Origin: Candidatus Nitronauta litoralis
GTDB lineage: Bacteria; Nitrospinota; Nitrospinia; Nitrospinales; Nitrospinaceae
Assembly: GCA_015698285.1 (NCBI GenBank)
Contig: CP048685.1
Coordinates: 1,860,001-1,924,000, forward strand
Reading direction: 5' to 3'
DNA: 64,000 bases
Shown here: piece by piece, positions 48,509 to 57,085 of the stretch
Position numbering within the stretch: the stretch's first letter is position 1
Layout: the number at the start of each line of letters is the position of its first letter
The notes under the pieces: generated by a model
What the model saw: only the letters and a program-made list of their open reading frames with translations
The model's database searches: none
Told to the model about the DNA's origin: nothing
Translations under genes and position numbers: made by a program

Positions 48509-49327
48509 TTACAGAGCGTGGCGCACCATGCCCATCACGCGGGGAATCAGCTTGGGCCGGGCCAGTCGTTTGTCATAGGGGGCCAGTCGCCGCCGATTTT
48601 CTTTGAGGCACAGCTCAATAAAACCCTTGGCATTGAGCCCGGAAGAGCTTTCGTACTGGGTTGCCTGTGCGGTGAAGGCAGAACCCCCGAGGTCTTTCAT
48701 TTCCATCAGCCGGGAGATTCCAGAATTCAGAAACGCGTACATGGTCAACAGGAAATGAAACGGCTGCACCAGGAAGGAGCGGGTGTAACGCTGGTAGTAA
48801 AGCCAGTTCTGGATGAACAGGATGTGCCGTGCTTCTTCCTGAACAATCGGCTCCATCGCCTCGATCAGTTCGAGAGGATAATCTTCAGTGGACTTGGAGA
48901 CCTGAATAAAACCGAAAGCAAAAAACGAATCGATGCATTCCCCGGTGCCGGTGGTCATGAAACACCACTCGAGATTGGACGGTAATCGTTTGTCCGGGAT
49001 TTCCTTGAACGGGATGCCGTAACGGTTCAGGAAATAGCGCAGGATGTCAGCGTGTCGGCCTTCTTCATAAGCCTGCAGGGCCATCGCCTCTTTCAGGAGC
49101 GGGTCCTCTATTTCTTTTGCGTAGGCCGTCAGTTTGTTGAACACCTGTCGTTCGGTATGGATTGCGTAGTCCCAGATGGGAAAACCGGCGAGCTTGTCGA
49201 TCACTTCCTGGCTGAGTTCCGGCCAGGGCAGGTCTTCCGGTTCAAACGGTTTATGGGAGTCGATGAACTGGCGGCAGAACAGTTGTTTATGCTCTTCTGT
49301 GCCGTATTGAATGGGCGCTGCTTCCAT
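48509..49327 (-). CDS. Ferritin-like di-iron protein of unknown function
   Basis: A 272-residue helical protein whose two Exx(H) helices fit a carboxylate di-iron site: AIHTERQVFNKLTAYAKEIED, LQAYEEGRHADILRYFLNRYG, GECIDSFFAFGFIQV and PIVQEEARHILFIQNWLYYQR. Such folds include desaturase-like, demethoxyubiquinone-hydroxylase-like and rubrerythrin-like enzymes; none can be chosen on motif alone. ATG 49327 begins MEAAPIQYGTEE; the frame includes two earlier codons. It is first of a minus cluster: ferritin-like, parvulin, VOC, mqnC. Confidence 0.7.
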   Translation of the reverse strand: MEAAPIQYGTEEHKQLFCRQFIDSHKPFEPEDLPWPELSQEVIDKLAGFPIWDYAIHTERQVFNKLTAYAKEIEDPLLKEAMALQAYEEGRHADILRYFLNRYGIPFKEIPDKRLPSNLEWCFMTTGTGECIDSFFAFGFIQVSKSTEDYPLELIEAMEPIVQEEARHILFIQNWLYYQRYTRSFLVQPFHFLLTMYAFLNSGISRLMEMKDLGGSAFTAQATQYESSSGLNAKGFIELCLKENRRRLAPYDKRLARPKLIPRVMGMVRHAL

Positions 49328-49333
49328 AGTCAT

Positions 49334-49564: not shown

Positions 49565-49600
49565 TAAAAAACGAGGGAGGCGCATTTAACACCTCCCCTC
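49565..49600 (-). terminator. terminator of repeat-protein gene A
   Basis: On the minus strand GGGAGGTG...CGCCTCCC forms a stem over GTTAAATG, followed by GTTTTTT, directly downstream of gene A's stop. Confidence 0.75.
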
Positions 49601-49633
49601 CATTGCGATACTATTTAATTTAAATCAAGTGCA

Positions 49634-50689
49634 TTAAAAATCTTCAAACAAGCTACCGGCAGCCCAGTCGTTATGGCCAGTAGCATCTCGGCTCACTCCG
49701 CCTCCCACGGTAGAAAATGAACCAGAAGCCTCGTTACTCTGTCCACCACTGACGGTGGCAGAACCACCCGAAGCCCTATTTAGATCTCCACCACTGACAC
49801 TGGATCGATTGGCGGAGGCGATATTGTTTCGTCCACCACTGATGCTGGATTGTAAACCGGAAGCCTCGTTGCCTTGCCCACCACTAACACTGGACATGAT
49901 TCCAGATGCGGTGTTGTTCTGCCCCCCGCTAACATTGGACCTGGGACCGGAAGCTACGTTGTTCTCTCCACCATTTACACTTGAGATTAAATCTGTAGCC
50001 GTGTTGTTTTCACCACCAGTGATACTGGAAGAACTGCCCGAAGCAGTGTTACCCAATCCTCCGCTGACACTGGAGGAATCTCCGGAGGCTGTGTTGAGAA
50101 CACCACCGGTGACCGTGGCAAAATTCGCGGTCGCCTTGTTCCGGTTGCCTCCAGTGGCGGCGGTGTAATCGGCACCGGCAATGTTGTTGAGACCGGCAGC
50201 GATTGAGCCGAAACTGGTGTAGTTCAGTCCTTTACCAACAATCAAATTGTGGGAGCCGGTTTTGTCACTCGCCGGAAGTCCGCCCCCCTCATAGGCAAAA
50301 ATATCTTCATTGTATCCAATAATGACATTTCCTTTTCCATTCACTGGCGCATCGGTAGCGCCGGAACCGGAGACCACCTGCAGGTTCATGTCGGTTAAGA
50401 GCAACGTATCGCCGGTCCGTGAAACACCATTGAGACGGGATTGCAATTCACCCATATCCGCTTGCAGAGTCGCAACGTCCAATGCCTGAGCAGACAGTGC
50501 ATTGAGGATAGCGGTGATATCCGGCTGTAAGGCCGAGAACAGTTGGAACAATTGGGTTGATAGCAACTCGACATTTGCCATCTGACCTTCCAGTGCGGTC
50601 ACTCGTTCCTCAAGAGTTTGGGCTTGTGCAGGCAAGGCCAATAAAAATGAAAACAATAGAATGGTACTTAAACGAAATAGTTTTTTCAT
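49634..50689 (-). CDS. Exported 15-residue-repeat stalk/head protein, paralog A
   Basis: A 351-residue protein, the first of five paralogs. It has a signal peptide (LFRLSTILLFSFLLALPAQA) and a short coiled-coil (LEERVTALEGQMANVELLSTQLFQLFSALQPDITAILNALSAQ). A connector follows (NVIIGYNEDIFAYEGGGLPASDKTGSHNLIVGKGLNYTSFGSIAAGLNNIAG), then about 11 repeats of the form SGGxxNTASGxxSSV, and a tail DWAAGSLFEDF. The mature part has no Cys. The repeat pattern resembles the beta-roll heads of trimeric autotransporters (YadA/Hep_Hag type), but no translocator barrel is present. Its role is unknown; a surface or released fibre is one possibility. A 203-nt tract is identical to paralog B. Confidence 0.85.
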   Translation of the reverse strand: MKKLFRLSTILLFSFLLALPAQAQTLEERVTALEGQMANVELLSTQLFQLFSALQPDITAILNALSAQALDVATLQADMGELQSRLNGVSRTGDTLLLTDMNLQVVSGSGATDAPVNGKGNVIIGYNEDIFAYEGGGLPASDKTGSHNLIVGKGLNYTSFGSIAAGLNNIAGADYTAATGGNRNKATANFATVTGGVLNTASGDSSSVSGGLGNTASGSSSSITGGENNTATDLISSVNGGENNVASGPRSNVSGGQNNTASGIMSSVSGGQGNEASGLQSSISGGRNNIASANRSSVSGGDLNRASGGSATVSGGQSNEASGSFSTVGGGVSRDATGHNDWAAGSLFEDF

Positions 50690-50779
50690 TTGGATCCCCT
50701 CCCAATATTGAACAAACTGTAGGTAGTAGTTTTGCCCCTATGGACAAAAAATAATCTTCCTCTGGAAATTTCTATCGAG

Positions 50780-50808
50780 AGTATTAGTGGATGGGGATAT
50801 TCTGTCAA
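50780..50808 (-). promoter_or_regulatory. promoter of repeat-protein gene A
   Basis: The minus strand reads TTGACA (50808-50803), 17 bp, AATACT (50785-50780). The flanking block GATATTCTGTCAAGGAT on the plus strand is shared with the promoter of gene E. The 5' leader to the ATG is about 85 nt. Confidence 0.8.
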
Positions 50809-51067
50809 GGATGACTTTGGAAAATTAAAGTGATGATGAGTCTTAAGGTTAGGGAAACAATTGAAAATCAAAGAGAGAAGGCAGCCTGGTATTTTTTGGA
50901 CTTCGCTATCAAAAATCGTTAAGAATTTAATTTTCTTCTTGCGAAGAGGTCATTGCAAAACCTGAAAAACCAGATCTTAAAGCGTGGTTCAGGTTTTATC
51001 CTGGGAATAGCCAAAGGGAAGAGATATCCGGTCTCCGGTTTTTGTAATAATATTTTTTTAAAGGTCT
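50809..51067. other. gene-free gap between paralogs A and B
   Basis: Low-GC sequence upstream of the gene A promoter and downstream of gene B. The segments TAATTTTCTTCTTGCGAAGAGG and GGTTTTATCCTGGGAATAGC have partial matches at 57208-57290, the corresponding gap beyond gene E. Duplicated flanking DNA therefore accompanies the paralogs. No gene is seen. Confidence 0.45.
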
Positions 51068-51106
51068 CAAAAAAAACAGGGGGAAGCGCGATGCGCGCCT
51101 CCCCCA
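51068..51106 (-). terminator. terminator of repeat-protein gene B
   Basis: GGGGGAAGCGCG / CGCGCCTCCCCC stem with a short loop. On the minus strand it is followed by TGTTTTTTT. It lies just after gene B. Confidence 0.85.
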
Positions 51107-51140
51107 GAAAACTAGTTTTGAAAACGGAAACTAAAAAGAG

Positions 51141-52388
51141 TTATTGGGTTTCGAACAAACTTCCGGCGCGCCAATCCTGGCTGCCTGTGCTGGCACGGTT
51201 AAATCCTCCGCCTACAGTCGATGCGAAACCGGATGCCTGATTGCCTTCGCCGCCACTGACCTGGGAACCATTGCCGGAAGACGTGTTACTGCGACCCCCG
51301 CTCACACTGGAGTTTTCACCCGAGGCAGTATTGCTGAATCCGCCGCTGACACTTGAGAAAGACTGGCTTGCCGTATTTTCACGTCCGCCACCTACACTGG
51401 AGGAAATTCCTGTCGCGATGTTTTCCCTTCCTCCGCTGATACTTGAAATAATGCCGTTGGCGGTATTCAATTGGCCGCCCAGAATGCTGGACCGGGATGC
51501 AGAGGCGATGTTCTCTTCGCCGCCACTGATGCTTGAAACCAGGGCGGATGCCGTGTTGTCTTCCCCTCCACTGATACTGGAAGAACTGCCCGAAGCGGTG
51601 TTACCCAATCCTCCGCTGACACTGGAGGAATCTCCGGAGGCTGTGTTGAGAACACCACCGGTGACCGTGGCAAAGTTGGAAGTGGCTTTATTGCGGTTGC
51701 CCCCTGTAACAGCAGTATAGTCGGCACCGGCAATGTTGTTGAGACCGGCAGCGATTGAGCCGAAACTGGTGTAGTTCAGTCCTTTACCAACAATCAAATT
51801 GTGGGAGCCGGTTTTGTCACTCGCCGGAAGTCCGCCCCCCTCATAGGCAAAAATATCTTCATTGTATCCAATAATGACATTTCCTTTTCCATTCACTGGC
51901 GCATCGGTAGCGCCGGAACCGGATACCACCTGCAGGTTCATATCGGTTAAGAGTAAGGTATCGCCAGTACGGGAAACGCCGGTGAAACGTGTCTGCAGTT
52001 CGCCAACGTCCGAGGTCAGTGCTGCGGTGTCCGTTTGCAATCCGGAAATAGACGTGTTTTGGGCCGTCTGTCCAGATTGAATGGTGGAAACATTTCCCTG
52101 TAAAGTTGTTACATCCGATTGAATGCCGGTCAAGCTGGTTTGTAAACCCGTAACTGCAGTTTGCAGTGCGGCAACTTCTCCCTGCTGTGCTACCAGTTCA
52201 TTCAGGATCGCCGCAATATCAGGCTGCAGGGCGGAGAATAGTTGAAACAACTGTGTGGAAAGTAATTCCACATTTGCCATCTGGGTTTCCAGTGTGGTCA
52301 CCCGTTCTTCAAGAGTTTGGGCTTGTGCAGGTAATGAAACAATTAGTGCAAAAATAAAAACGATACAACCTGTTAATTTTCCTTTCAT
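51141..52388 (-). CDS. Exported 15-residue-repeat stalk/head protein, paralog B
   Basis: A 415-residue protein. It has a signal peptide (LTGCIVFIFALIVSLPAQA) and a long coiled coil with heptad-like repeats (LQTSLTGIQSDVTTLQGNVSTIQ ... GLQTDTAALTSDVGELQTRF). The shared connector NVIIGYNEDIFAYEGGG...GLNYTSFGSIAAGLNNIAG follows, then 12 SGG-type 15-residue repeats and the tail DWRAGSLFETQ. Mature Cys is absent. The stalk is much longer than in A, while the connector and the first repeats are nearly identical at DNA level. The strong ribosome site GGGGAGGGG precedes the ATG. Confidence 0.85.
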   Translation of the reverse strand: MKGKLTGCIVFIFALIVSLPAQAQTLEERVTTLETQMANVELLSTQLFQLFSALQPDIAAILNELVAQQGEVAALQTAVTGLQTSLTGIQSDVTTLQGNVSTIQSGQTAQNTSISGLQTDTAALTSDVGELQTRFTGVSRTGDTLLLTDMNLQVVSGSGATDAPVNGKGNVIIGYNEDIFAYEGGGLPASDKTGSHNLIVGKGLNYTSFGSIAAGLNNIAGADYTAVTGGNRNKATSNFATVTGGVLNTASGDSSSVSGGLGNTASGSSSSISGGEDNTASALVSSISGGEENIASASRSSILGGQLNTANGIISSISGGRENIATGISSSVGGGRENTASQSFSSVSGGFSNTASGENSSVSGGRSNTSSGNGSQVSGGEGNQASGFASTVGGGFNRASTGSQDWRAGSLFETQ

Positions 52389-52479
52389 GGCAGACCCCTC
52401 CCCAAGTTTGAAATATTGCTGGAAATTTTTGTTTGAAGTAAAAAGTTCAGATTAAAACTTCTCCCCAGGATATGATTGT

Positions 52480-52508
52480 GATTATGGAGCGAGATGGTTT
52501 TATGTCAA
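52480..52508 (-). promoter_or_regulatory. promoter of repeat-protein gene B
   Basis: TTGACA (52508-52503), 17 bp, ATAATC (52485-52480) on the minus strand. The 5' leader is about 85 nt, as in the other four genes. Confidence 0.75.
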
Positions 52509-52575
52509 GAAAGGAATCGGATTGATAGAAGGAAACTGGATATAGATCTTGAATTAGGAAACCCTGGATTCGCAA

Positions 52576-52614
52576 GAAAAAAAGGGGAAGGCGCATGGCG
52601 CACCTCCCCCTTTT
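52576..52614 (-). terminator. terminator of repeat-protein gene C
   Basis: GGGGAAGGCGC / GCGCACCTCCCC stem with a short loop. On the minus strand it is followed by a T-run (TTTTTTTC). It lies downstream of gene C. Confidence 0.85.
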
Positions 52615-52652
52615 CAGAAGAGACGTTTGAAATGTATTGACTTTACTACGGC

Positions 52653-53954
52653 TTACTGGGTTTCAAACAAGGACCCAGCTCGCCAATCGTAAATGTTAAT
52701 AGATGATCGGTTGAATCCTCCGCTGACGGAGGCGCGGCTTCCGGAAGCAGTATTTGAATTGCCACCGCTGACACTGGACCCGATGCCCGATGCCTGGTTG
52801 ACTACACCGCCACTGACCGTGGAAGAAACCCCGGAAGCGGTGTTGGTTCCTCCCCCCAGTACACTGGAGAAGTTTCCGGTTGCGTTGTTGTTAAAACCGC
52901 CACTGATGCTGGAAGAATCACCGGATGTTTCACCGCCTTGCCCACCACTGATACTGTTGTTGATACCTGCGGCTGTGTTAAGGTTCCCGCCACTGACACT
53001 GGAGTTCTCTCCAGATGCGGTGTTGTTTAGACCGCCACTCACGCTGGAATAAACTCCGTCGGCTGTGTTATCCCTGCCGCCACTCACACTGGAAAAGTTA
53101 AAGGCAGCGGTGTTATCCCTGCCGCCACTGACGCTGGATTGTAAACCGGAGGCAGTATGGCCGCCACCGCCGCTGACGCTGGATAAAAATCCGGTTGTTG
53201 TGTTGCTGGACCCACCGCTGATAATGGAATTTTGCCCTTGGGTCGTGTTGAGTAATCCCCCGCTGATGGTGGAAAGAAACCCCGTAGCCTGATTGCGGTC
53301 CCCGCCTGTGACAGAGGCGTACATACCACTGGAAACATTATTCAAGCCGGCAACCAATGCTCCAAAGCTGGAATAATTGAGGCCCTTTCCAACGACCAGG
53401 TTATGCGAACCCCTTTTATTACTGACAGGAGTTGTTCCACCGGGTAAAAACGGAAAGATGTCTTCGTTGTATCCAATGATGATGTTGCCGTTGCCATTGA
53501 CGGGTCCATCCGTATCACCAGACCCTGAAACGACCTGCAGGTTCATGCCCGTTAACAGCAGCGTGTCTCCTGTACGGGTCACACCATTGAAACGGGTTTG
53601 CAGTTCGCCAACATCGGTGGTCAGGGTGGAATTACTGGTTTGCAATGCAGTAATGTCGTTATCCTGCGTCGCATCGTTTGTTTGCAAAGTACTGACATCT
53701 GATTGAACTGTTGTCATCGATGCTTGAAGTGCGGCGACTTCTCCCTGTTGTGTGGCCAGGGCATTCAGGATGGCCACGATGTCTGGCTGTAATGCAGAAA
53801 ATAAATCGAACAGCTGGGTGGATAACAATTCCACATTTGCCATCTGGCCCTCAAGTGCGGTCACCCGTTCTTCCAACGTCTGTGCCTGTGCGGACATGGA
53901 AATTAGTAAGCCGCAAAACAAAGCCGCGACCTTCAGATAAAGTTTATTCATCAT
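52653..53954 (-). CDS. Exported 15-residue-repeat stalk/head protein, paralog C
   Basis: A 433-residue protein. It has a signal (YLKVAALFCGLLISMSAQA), a coiled coil of medium length (LQASMTTVQSDVSTLQTNDATQDNDITALQTSNSTLTTDVGELQTRF) and the connector NIIIGYNEDIFPFLPGGTTPVSNKRGSHNLVVGKGLNYSSFGALVAG. Then come 14 SGG-type repeats and the tail DWRAGSLFETQ. It differs from A and B in the connector (PFLPGGTTP, NKRGS). Its start is a double ATG after AGGAGG. Confidence 0.85.
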   Translation of the reverse strand: MMNKLYLKVAALFCGLLISMSAQAQTLEERVTALEGQMANVELLSTQLFDLFSALQPDIVAILNALATQQGEVAALQASMTTVQSDVSTLQTNDATQDNDITALQTSNSTLTTDVGELQTRFNGVTRTGDTLLLTGMNLQVVSGSGDTDGPVNGNGNIIIGYNEDIFPFLPGGTTPVSNKRGSHNLVVGKGLNYSSFGALVAGLNNVSSGMYASVTGGDRNQATGFLSTISGGLLNTTQGQNSIISGGSSNTTTGFLSSVSGGGGHTASGLQSSVSGGRDNTAAFNFSSVSGGRDNTADGVYSSVSGGLNNTASGENSSVSGGNLNTAAGINNSISGGQGGETSGDSSSISGGFNNNATGNFSSVLGGGTNTASGVSSTVSGGVVNQASGIGSSVSGGNSNTASGSRASVSGGFNRSSINIYDWRAGSLFETQ

Positions 53955-54036
53955 GATTTCCTCCTGATTTATTCTGTATGAGTAAAACTCAATTCCGTTT
54001 TATGGAGATCTGATTTTCTATAACGAGACTTGGAGG

Positions 54037-54065
54037 GATTATCCGCCGCGCTGAATTGTTGTCAA
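54037..54065 (-). promoter_or_regulatory. promoter of repeat-protein gene C
   Basis: TTGACA (54065-54060), 17 bp, ATAATC (54042-54037) on the minus strand, about 83 bp before the start codon. Confidence 0.75.
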
Positions 54066-54137
54066 TAGTAGGAAAGATACACCGGTGTAGGGGGAAGTGT
54101 GAAGGCGAGGAAGGTGAGGCAGCACTAACGTATGCTG

Positions 54138-54167
54138 AAATAAAGGGGAGACGCTTTGCGCCTCCCC
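54138..54167 (-). terminator. terminator of repeat-protein gene D
   Basis: GGGGAGACGC / GCGCCTCCCC stem with a TTT loop. The minus-strand tail CTTTATTTC is a moderate T-run. Confidence 0.7.
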
Positions 54168-54204
54168 GAGTTGTATCCGGTTAGTGATTCAGTATCGAAA
54201 ATGG

Positions 54205-55356
54205 TTATTGGGCTTCGAACAGACTCCCGGCTTGCCAGTTAAAAATGACCGGGGCGGTTCTCTGGAGTCCACCTCCAACCGTAGCTGCGTTCCCGGATGC
54301 TTCGTTTTGCCTGCCTCCACTGACAGTGGAGTGATCTCCAGATGCTGTGTTTAAATAACCCCCGCTGATTGAAGAATGATCCGCTGAAGCGGAGTTTTCA
54401 CGTCCGCCACTGATGTTGGACCGGGGGCCTGAAGTGATGTTGAGTCTGCCTCCGGTTATAGAAGAAATATCACCTGAAGCCGTATTTTGTTGTCCTGCAG
54501 TAATACTTGAGGAATTGCCGGAAGCGGTATTGATAAAACCGCCGGTGACCGTGGAATAGGCTCCGGTTGCCTGGTTGCGGTTGCCTCCGATAACGGATGC
54601 GTATTGTGCGCCTGAAACATTATCCTCACCTGCCACCACTGCGCCATAGCCCGAAAAGTTCAATCCTCTGCCCACCACCAGATTGTGCGAACCGGTCTTG
54701 TCGCTTGCGGGGAGCCCGCCGCCCAGAAATGGAAAGATGTCTTCGTTGTAACCGATGATCACATTGCCTGTGCCGTTAACTGTGCTATCCGTAAAGCCAG
54801 CTCCGGAGACCACCTGCAGGTTCATGCCCGTGAAAAGCAGGACATCTCCTGTTCGTGTTACGCCGGTGAAGCGGGTTTGTAATTCCCCGACGTCCGTATT
54901 CAGGCTAGCAGTGTCGGTTTGCAATCCGGAAATAGCTGTGTTTTGGGCGGTCTGTCCGGATTGCAGGGTAGAGACATTGCCCTGGAGATTCGAGATGTTA
55001 GTGTCCTGGATTGCGTTATCGGCTTGCAAAGTGCCAATATCCGTTTGCACAGTGGAAACGTCAGTCTGCAACGTGCCTACATCGGTCTGCACGGTCGAGA
55101 TATCTGATTGAACCGTTGTCATGGAAGCTTGAAGAACAGCGATATCCAACTGCTGGGCCGCCAGAGCGTTTAGGATGGCAACGATATTAGGCTCCAATGC
55201 CGAAACCAGTTGAAACAACTGGGTTGATACCAGTTCGACATTAGCCATCTGTGCTTCAAGCGTGTCCAGTCGTTCTTCCACAGTTTGCGCCTGAGCAGGA
55301 AGAGAAACGGACAGCATGAGAATAGAAAAAGTACCCCAGAGAAGAAATTTTTTCAT
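54205..55356 (-). CDS. Exported 15-residue-repeat stalk/head protein, paralog D
   Basis: A 383-residue protein with the longest stalk of the five. After the signal peptide (LLWGTFSILMLSVSLPAQA) and the common N-terminal coil comes a run of near-perfect 7-residue units (VQSDISTVQTDVGTLQTDVSTVQTDIGTLQADN). The connector NVIIGYNEDIFPFLGGGLPASDKTGSHNLVVGRGLNFSGYGAVVAGEDNVSG follows, then only eight SGG-type repeats and the tail NWQAGSLFEAQ. ATG 55356 follows GGAGGGG. Longer stalk with shorter head suggests the two parts vary independently. Confidence 0.85.
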   Translation of the reverse strand: MKKFLLWGTFSILMLSVSLPAQAQTVEERLDTLEAQMANVELVSTQLFQLVSALEPNIVAILNALAAQQLDIAVLQASMTTVQSDISTVQTDVGTLQTDVSTVQTDIGTLQADNAIQDTNISNLQGNVSTLQSGQTAQNTAISGLQTDTASLNTDVGELQTRFTGVTRTGDVLLFTGMNLQVVSGAGFTDSTVNGTGNVIIGYNEDIFPFLGGGLPASDKTGSHNLVVGRGLNFSGYGAVVAGEDNVSGAQYASVIGGNRNQATGAYSTVTGGFINTASGNSSSITAGQQNTASGDISSITGGRLNITSGPRSNISGGRENSASADHSSISGGYLNTASGDHSTVSGGRQNEASGNAATVGGGLQRTAPVIFNWQAGSLFEAQ

Positions 55357-55442
55357 GATGAACCCCTCCAATAATTGGCGCGGCGGTCAAAGCTGTCTCG
55401 CTCAGACGCCCGCGAAAAATTATCTCCCCCAGAGATACTGGC

Positions 55443-55471
55443 GATTATCCTTGGCGAGGGATTTATGTCAA
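55443..55471 (-). promoter_or_regulatory. promoter of repeat-protein gene D
   Basis: TTGACA (55471-55466), 17 bp, ATAATC (55448-55443) on the minus strand. The transcribed leader carries CTGGGGGAGATAA, also seen in the gene E leader. Confidence 0.75.
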
Positions 55472-55585
55472 GAGTAGTTAGGGGGATGCTAAGGAATGGG
55501 TTTCAAAAAATAATATAAAGCAGTTAAATACAACCCGGTAAGACAGGAAATCGGGTGAGTTTTTTGTTAGCCGACCGCTAGGTCT

Positions 55586-55619
55586 AAAAAAAGGGGAAGG
55601 CGCATGAAGCGCCTCCCCC
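55586..55619 (-). terminator. terminator of repeat-protein gene E
   Basis: GGGGAAGGCGC / GCGCCTCCCCC stem. The minus-strand tail is TTTTTTTAGACC. It lies directly after gene E. Confidence 0.85.
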
Positions 55620-55655
55620 GGTTGGAACAGGTTGGATTGGAAATTTTCTCTTTAA

Positions 55656-56966
55656 TTAATTATCTTCAAACAAACTTCCTGCAACCCAGTCGTCTAGCCC
55701 TGTGGCATTTCGGGAGTTTCCACCGCTGACACTGGAAGAAGCTTCTGATGCGGTGTTGCTGTTCCCGCCACTGACGCTGGAATTCCTTGCGGAAGCGGTA
55801 TTTTGAACGCCACCACTGACGCTGGATCTGACGCCAGATGCGGTATTGTTTGTACCTCCACTGACACTAGCAGATTCATTGGAAGCGGTATTTTGAAGGC
55901 CGCCACTGACACTGGAATGAAGTCCGGATGCTATGTTGTTTTGCCCGCCACTAATGCTTGCATAAAAATTCGAGGCATTATTACCTTGACCTCCACTTAC
56001 GCTGGAACTTGGACTAGATGCAGTGTTTCCTTGTCCACCACTGACACTGGAATTATTCCCGGAAGCGGTGTTATACCAACCGCCACTCACACTAGAGTAT
56101 TGCATAGAGGTATTGTTGTTCTGGCCGCCACTCACACTGTTTCCAATTCCGGAAGCTGTGTTATTAAAACCGCCACTTACACTGGAGTATGCTCCAGTGG
56201 CAGTATTTTGAAGGCCGCCACTGACGTTGGCAATGACACCGGAAGCTTCGTTTCCTTTCCCACCACTGACACTGGAGTGGGACCCGGAAGCGATGTTCTC
56301 CCCACCTCCACTGACGCTGGAGTTAAAATCAGAAGCGACATTTCTATTTCCACCACTGACACTTGAATAAGTGCCCGTCGCCCGGTTACGGTTGCCACCC
56401 GTGACCGATGCATATTCTCCGCTGGAAACATTGTCGCGACCCGCAACTATTCCTCCAAAGCTGGAATAATTGAGGCCCTCTCCCACGATCAGATAATGAG
56501 AACCCGTTTTGTCGCTGGCTGGTAAGGCTGGAGTTCCGCCAAGAAAAGGGAAAATGTCTTCGTTGTATCCAATGATTACGTTGCCGAGTCCGTTCACCTG
56601 TGTGGTCCCCGTATTATTTGGGTCACCATCGGTTGCGCCGAGGCCATTCGTCACCTGCAAATTCATACTGTCAAATTGCAATACATCACCGTTGCGCGAC
56701 ACCCCGTTGAAGCGTGACTGTAGTTCACTCATATCCGCTTGAAGTGTAGCAACATCCAACTGCTGGGCTGCCAGGGCATTCAGGATAGCGGTGATATCCG
56801 GCTGTAAGGCCGAGAACAGTTGGAACAATTGGGTTGATAGCAACTCGACATTCGCCATGGATGTTTCAAGAGCAGTCACTCGTTCTTCCAGAGTTTGTGC
56901 CTGTGCAGGTAATACGATTAAAAGTGAAAACACTAGAACGATACTTCCCAAAAATAATTTTTTCAT
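55656..56966 (-). CDS. Exported 15-residue-repeat stalk/head protein, paralog E
   Basis: A 436-residue protein with a short stalk and the longest head. It has a signal (LFLGSIVLVFSLLIVLPAQA), coil (QTLEERVTALETSMANVELLSTQLFQLFSALQPDITAILNALAAQQ), a slightly longer connector (DGDPNNTGTTQVNGLGNVIIGYNEDIFPFLGGTPALPASDKTGSHYLIVGEG), 16 SGG-type repeats and the tail DWVAGSLFEDN. A 71-nt tract encoding part of the coil (56782-56852) is identical to paralog A at 50505-50575. First in the direction of transcription of the array, but it has its own promoter and terminator. Confidence 0.85.
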   Translation of the reverse strand: MKKLFLGSIVLVFSLLIVLPAQAQTLEERVTALETSMANVELLSTQLFQLFSALQPDITAILNALAAQQLDVATLQADMSELQSRFNGVSRNGDVLQFDSMNLQVTNGLGATDGDPNNTGTTQVNGLGNVIIGYNEDIFPFLGGTPALPASDKTGSHYLIVGEGLNYSSFGGIVAGRDNVSSGEYASVTGGNRNRATGTYSSVSGGNRNVASDFNSSVSGGGENIASGSHSSVSGGKGNEASGVIANVSGGLQNTATGAYSSVSGGFNNTASGIGNSVSGGQNNNTSMQYSSVSGGWYNTASGNNSSVSGGQGNTASSPSSSVSGGQGNNASNFYASISGGQNNIASGLHSSVSGGLQNTASNESASVSGGTNNTASGVRSSVSGGVQNTASARNSSVSGGNSNTASEASSSVSGGNSRNATGLDDWVAGSLFEDN

Positions 56967-57056
56967 TTGGGTCCCCTCTCAATTTTTGAAATAGCGCAAG
57001 ATCAATATGAAAACTCAACCGCAGACAGTTATCTCCCCCAGAGATTTTCAGGCTCG

Positions 57057-57085
57057 AGTATTGGCGGTTCGGGATATTCTGTCAA
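57057..57085 (-). promoter_or_regulatory. promoter of repeat-protein gene E
   Basis: TTGACA (57085-57080), 17 bp, AATACT (57062-57057) on the minus strand. Its surroundings match the gene A promoter closely. The remaining sequence to 57274 is AT-rich and shows no gene. Confidence 0.8.

Follow-up and report, generated by a model that had tools for sequence, protein, structure and literature searches.

Five adjacent genes of Candidatus Nitronauta litoralis EB encode exported proteins in which a coiled coil precedes a head of 15-residue repeats, and none of them carries a membrane anchor. What kind of protein is this, and how might it leave the cell and stay at its surface? The genes lie in a stretch of 64,000 nucleotides (the window; contig CP048685.1, positions 1,860,001 to 1,924,000) of a genome of 3,921,641 bases in one contig. 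Strain EB is a nitrite oxidiser from warm coastal sediment of Elba that grows at 28 °C (PMC8026999), and no other known marine nitrite oxidisers are as abundant as those of its phylum, Nitrospinota (PMC10839748). We consider it fairly probable that the proteins form Sec-exported, barrel-less homotrimeric adhesive fibres in which the end serving retention is constant and the far end varies.

The five open reading frames (351-436 codons) occupy positions 49634-56966 of the window, on the minus strand throughout. From A to E, the order of parts is the same, i.e., signal peptide, helical N-terminal module, coiled coil, neck, 15-residue units and a final WxAGSLFE motif. An earlier note on this DNA had described such an array of paralogs, and both the reading frames and the sequences agree with it; the limits given there (49565-57085) coincide with the terminator of gene A and the promoter of gene E. 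Read by eye, the signal peptides of A-D are laid out like that of E, i.e., they end in AQA. The neck consensus of the five is MNLQV..GSGxTD..VNGxGNVIIGYNEDIF...GSHNLIVGxGLNYSSFG. Cys is absent from all five mature chains, as had been noted, and occurs solely within two signal peptides, those of B and C. The repeat period is far above chance: gene E shows 136 lag-15 residue matches compared to 34.7 ± 5.3 (maximum 51) in 2000 shuffles, with similar results for the other four genes.

The five top promoter-like sites of the region (scores of 10 or 11 out of 12) are located one upstream of each fibre gene, and downstream of every one of the five a hairpin rich in GC precedes a stretch of T (Table 1). 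With one promoter and one terminator to each gene, the array consists of five separate transcription units and is not an operon. It is flanked by housekeeping genes (mqnC-like, glyoxalase and PpiC on one side; a fused cobA/hemD, ksgA and pdxA on the other).

Table 1. Features of the fibre gene array (window positions).
Feature	Position	Strand	Remark
E sigma-70-like promoter	57057..57085	-	TTGACA-17-AATACT, 10/12
Fibre gene E	55656..56966	-	436 aa; 61-aa stalk, about 16-17 head units
E signal peptide	56895..56966	-	residues 1-24, AQA before Q24/T25; read by eye
E constant N-terminal helical module	56745..56894	-	residues 25-74
E beta-roll head	55689..56504	-	GSHYLIVG (residue 155) onward, through 15-residue units
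E C-terminal cap motif WVAGSLFEDN	55659..55688	-	from sequence; motif common across phyla
Hairpin terminator 3' of E	55593..55619	-	scan; conserved in paralogs
D sigma-70-like promoter	55444..55471	-	11/12
Fibre gene D	54205..55356	-	383 aa from ATG; alternative TTG start possible at 55371
Hairpin terminator 3' of D	54145..54167	-	scan
C sigma-70-like promoter	54038..54065	-	11/12
Fibre gene C	52653..53954	-	433 aa
Hairpin terminator 3' of C	52584..52610	-	imperfect stem, then T run; from sequence, missed by scan
B sigma-70-like promoter	52481..52508	-	11/12
Fibre gene B	51141..52388	-	415 aa; neck 92% identical to A, recent duplicate
Hairpin terminator 3' of B	51079..51105	-	scan
A sigma-70-like promoter	50780..50808	-	10/12
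Fibre gene A	49634..50689	-	351 aa; short stalk, about 11-12 head units
Hairpin terminator 3' of A	49574..49598	-	scan

We are highly confident that the heads adopt the left-handed parallel beta-roll of UspA1 from Moraxella catarrhalis (3PR7, 3NTN; PF18792), with which they share the 15-residue unit and its frame GGxxNxAxGxxS(T/S)(I/V). A phmmer search with the head retrieves UspA1 3PR7 at E=1.3e-20, the only adhesin matched by sequence, and the family profile reaches E=1.1e-35, while the reversed head used as control has no match at E<=10. With regard to the Pfam repeat family UspA1_rep (PF18792), the best score of the window proteins (20.6 bits) stays under the curated cut-off of 27, which is exceeded by two distant relatives scanned singly (L068, 50.6 bits; L057, 31.5 bits). 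This is also reflected in the predicted structures. The head-only AlphaFold2 model (mean pLDDT 81, pTM 0.78) has UspA1 3pr7 as its top PDB fold match (probability 0.94, though E=0.01) and superimposes on 3ntn with 0.8 Å over 51 columns at 49% identity. The full-length model likewise shows a beta solenoid, most of the head reaching a pLDDT close to 90; as a monomer it has no significant match in the PDB, which we attribute to its long helix. That is, the likeness to trimeric autotransporter heads that the earlier note had seen holds for sequence, profile and head-only fold, and the beta-roll whose absence from a structure prediction it had named as refuting is present in the head-only model.

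Preceding the head, the full-length model shows a single helix across residues 2-85, and the stalk sequences have hydrophobic peaks at lag-7 and lag-14. It was these coiled coils alone that gave rise to matches in PHROGs (minor head protein, tail needle), which were discarded. Stalk and head lengths vary independently, as had been claimed for the array: gene D combines the longest stalk of the five (138 aa) with the fewest head units (about 9), gene E a 61-aa stalk with about 17 units, and overall stalks of 60-184 aa and heads of 9-19 units show no significant correlation (rho -0.38, p 0.13).

What stands N-terminal to the neck is exchangeable among relatives, i.e., it is a coiled coil, a collagen triple helix (102 triplets at most), a set of FG-GAP repeats or a domain similar to the N-domain of the Bdellovibrio mosaic adhesive trimer (MAT) fibres. 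Uninterrupted Gly-X-Y runs of 102, 45, 24, 20 and 15 triplets stand ahead of the same neck in place of a coiled coil, and 5/72 relatives have a Pfam Collagen match. Coiled coil and collagen are both normally trimeric in such fibres. Their exchange makes a homotrimer very likely and is the best argument at hand, such that we regard the fibres, judged by their sequences, as very probably homotrimeric.

The window array holds only a quarter or so of the family in this genome: the whole-genome search that the earlier note had called for finds about 20 fibre gene copies at several loci, not just five. Eight are located at 402.8-414.7 kb (one interrupted by stops), and single copies stand at 809.8, 870.4, 875.0 and 896.3 kb. 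The window array apart, the remainder are a divergent copy at 1129.4 kb and a pair at 1942-1946 kb that includes a head-head fusion (823 aa). A relative of the same genus has at least nine copies, and the neck is present in only 8/77 genomes of the phylum. In a tree of the necks, many branches of which are weak, the copies from Nitrospinota group together. Genes A and B make up a recent tandem pair there, while C, D and E are nearer to copies from other genomes, which implies a diversity older than this species.

The proposed search of all genomes was run as well. Scanning 84,980 prokaryote genomes yielded 278 stretches encoding a relative, of which 79 loci were kept (Planctomycetota, Deltaproteobacteria, Binatia, Myxococcota, Armatimonadota, Chloroflexota, Patescibacteria and others). 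The family is hence widespread rather than unique; its neck and head are shared by many phyla, always without a barrel, and it has no name in Pfam or NCBIfam.

The opposite ends of the copies differ in constraint. The first 50 mature residues show a mean identity of 80.5% among 18 paralogs at saturated synonymous sites (pS 0.72, pN 0.13). This N module occurs in these fibre genes only, 19 times in the present genome (G000), 10 times in one relative of the genus (G002) and nowhere else among the phylum's 77 genomes. Within the 15-residue units (pS about 0.75), the repeat frame is under purifying selection and the exposed positions vary freely: pN is about 0.25 for ten constrained and about 0.7 for five exposed positions, a contrast that is partly built in, since the two sets were picked from the same data. 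Recent slippage was rejected as the origin of the repeats, given that units of one gene share only 34-58% amino-acid identity with saturated synonymous sites; TRF reports just two weak arrays, both within gene E.

We also compared the order of parts with known systems. Type Vc trimeric autotransporter adhesins share the coiled-coil stalk and beta-roll head, but they are arranged as signal, head, neck, stalk and anchor, while the window proteins run from signal via coil, neck and head to the end. UspA1 itself follows the former order (head, stalk, then C-terminal YadA anchor). None of the five window proteins has a Pfam hit to the YadA anchor, and neither YadA_anchor (PF03895) nor YadA_head matches anywhere in the genome, such that the reported absence of a YadA barrel extends from the proteins to the whole genome. 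Lipobox and sorting signals are likewise absent from the five. Among relatives, a hydrophobic N-terminal stretch is found in 65, the frequent Pfam hits include no anchor and no barrel, and only one of the 76 with a complete end has a C-terminal stretch that is barely transmembrane-like. A motif of W-[AG]-G type within about 16 residues of the C-terminus is present in 52/76 of these; being common to relatives across phyla, it led us to reject WxAGSLFE as an array-specific sorting tag. Bacterial collagen-like adhesins (Lcl, Scl) resemble relatives from the same phylum, which place a Gly-X-Y triple-helix stalk before the same head, but differ from the window proteins by the coiled-coil stalk and missing LPXTG anchor of the latter.

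Similar in layout are the MAT fibres of Bdellovibrio bacteriovorus. These barrel-less trimers are exported via Sec and displayed at the surface with their C-termini outward; they combine a constant N-end with a diversified C-end and count 21 copies in HD100 (PMC10769870). The window family, as read from its genes alone, shares the Sec-type export, the missing barrel, the constant N-end with diverse C-end and the number of about 20 paralogs. MAT fibres differ in their beta-rich N-domain of roughly 130 aa (NF053851), for which the five window proteins have no match at E<=1 and six distant relatives have matches below the NCBIfam cut-off, as well as in their tips (S74, TNF-like or C-type lectin compared to the UspA1-type roll). 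We suggest by analogy that the fibres may work like MAT fibres but, since the N-domain was not found, do not class them as such.

No anchor in the chains also fits a structural role, i.e., trimers without specific retention that are released or build a fibrous layer in the extracellular or periplasmic space and are no adhesins. We consider this rather unlikely. The many similar copies, the chemically bland heads rich in S, T, G and N, and the occurrence of the family in phyla with quite different envelopes are in accordance with such a matrix, but the near-invariant, genus-specific N module is under more constraint than the plain start of a coiled coil should need, and the MAT precedent provides barrel-less trimers that are held at the surface (PMC10769870).

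That the proteins bind ice or inhibit its recrystallisation is very improbable. The window proteins have sub-threshold LbR_Ice_bind matches (two distant relatives lie above its cut-off) and match the ryegrass inhibition protein 3ULT at E=5e-5; the profile match to UspA1 is far better, however (1e-35 vs 9e-6), the exposed positions are highly variable and form no flat regular Thr array, and the warm origin and growth temperature of EB (PMC8026999) speak against it. A type Vc-like or two-partner arrangement with the barrel supplied in trans, for which the autotransporter-type head and stalk and two ShlB/TpsB-type transporter genes could speak, is largely refuted and still less probable: besides the lack of a YadA anchor in the genome, no haemagglutination domain is reported for the five proteins nor do they have the N-terminal TPS domain of type Vb exoproteins, both transporter genes (97 kb and 2519 kb) are distant from every copy, and there are relatives in Patescibacteria and Chloroflexi, lineages generally taken to have no outer membrane. 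The most unlikely reading is that of fibres from phages or phage-derived particles. The stalk-then-head order and the predicted folds of collagen-stalked fibres from phages and giant viruses resemble the window proteins; against this reading speak the signal peptides, the adjoining housekeeping genes, the absence of any match among 50,697 phage records and the mere 4 loci from IMG/VR.

For the favoured barrel-less adhesive fibres, we looked for an export partner. The search for a dedicated secretion gene, as suggested earlier, came out negative for the expanded copies, i.e., their loci have no partner gene in common according to recurrent neighbours; a possible partner adjoins divergent copies only. 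About a dozen bases downstream of the copy at 1129.4 kb lies a gene whose exported product (253 aa) looks, by eye, like the short N-terminal (STN) domain of secretins and TonB systems, a resemblance for which Pfam and PDB profiles give no support. Homologues are located directly 3' of head genes in several other Nitrospinota. The gene is single in the genome, the other fibre copies being without it, and its homologues in 38/77 genomes of the phylum are commoner than the heads, such that it may serve other fibres as well. The genome furthermore encodes five strong secretin homologues, for which no link to the fibre proteins was seen.

Taken at face value, the parts suggest the following working. 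Sec would export the chains, and the outer membrane would perhaps be crossed via a general secretion route. The near-invariant N module would probably nucleate the trimeric coiled coil and probably hold the fibre at the cell or present it there. The stalk, a coiled coil whose length varies, and the conserved neck after it would carry the head outward, where the beta-roll of 9-19 coils with its WxAGSLFE cap would form the far end pointing away from the cell. This head may bind surfaces, glycans or neighbouring cells, and some 20 copies with own promoter and terminator would provide fibres that differ in reach and head surface. A location outside the cell seems probable to us. As to adhesion, i.e., attachment to surfaces or other cells, we lean slightly towards it; EB showed no visible aggregates in respiration tests (PMC8026999) and hence no sign of strong self-adhesion in culture, which counts against it.

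Judged by titles and abstracts, the literature found describes neither a surface adhesin of Nitrospinota nor this family, and nothing was found there on the repeat sequence. Of the reading in the earlier note, the anatomy is borne out, and the context has been filled in. The parts are known already; their combination and expansion are not described in that literature. Tentatively, the family may represent a class of barrel-less, reverse-ordered trimeric adhesins of many phyla, within which Nitronauta would own a private N-terminal docking module, a MAT-like recognition repertoire of about 20 members and its own surface receptor. UspA1-like heads of pathogens carry a membrane anchor, whereas the fibres of this marine nitrite oxidiser do without one, and the occurrence of anchorless UspA1-type fibres across many phyla implies that heads of autotransporter type also circulate in proteins of a different build. 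Thanks to the constant N module, it becomes testable how barrel-less trimeric fibres, including those of the Bdellovibrio MAT type, cross the envelope and stay on it.

Roughly a dozen bases downstream of the divergent fibre gene (the family copy at 1129.4 kb) lies a gene for an exported protein of 253 aa, whose resemblance to the secretin or TonB short N-terminal (STN) domain found no support in Pfam. Homologues of this protein are present in 38/77 Nitrospinota genomes, and in several Nitrospinota they directly follow fibre genes.

Mutually related large ORFs, kinase-like by eye, adjoin fibre genes at ten loci, mostly from Planctomycetota; a small gene resembling a sigma factor is common to three of these as well (L055, L057, L091). 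Near the fibre genes of two genomes of the genus, a formylglycine-generating-enzyme-like protein is encoded.

Coordinates of fibre-gene neighbours, unusual fibre copies and other genes (L-numbers, loci with fibre-family relatives)
Feature	Locus or window	EB genome	Remark
Exported protein, 253 aa	L035:5468-6229	1130467-1131228	STN-like by eye
Kinase-like large ORFs	L055, L056, L057, L061, L069, L072, L085, L087, L091, L113		
Exported formylglycine-generating-enzyme-like protein	L034:2569-3528; L042:8246-9184		by eye
Fused double fibre protein, 823 aa	L037:3715-6186	1943714-1946185	
Degraded fibre copy	L031:7966-8732	406965-407731	in-frame stops
Second fibre-gene fragment		895879-896046	
274-aa ORF	window 48509-49333, minus		conserved-looking; between housekeeping genes
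TpsB/ShlB-type transporters (two)		96775-97686; 2518823-2519776	

The fused protein joins one fibre protein to another: where its first head ends in the cap W-x-GGSL, a second neck and head follow without a break. The degraded copy sits within the eight-gene cluster (402.8-414.7 kb).

The neck at L043 (Nitrospinaceae OFTM387, an order-level relative) is 93% identical to that of window gene D, despite this genome being classed in a different family; transfer or a binning error may account for the closeness.

The 274-aa ORF has no Pfam match at 1e-5 and looks CADD/heme-oxygenase-like by eye only. Given its two TpsB/ShlB-type transporters, the organism does have two-partner secretion, for other substrates.
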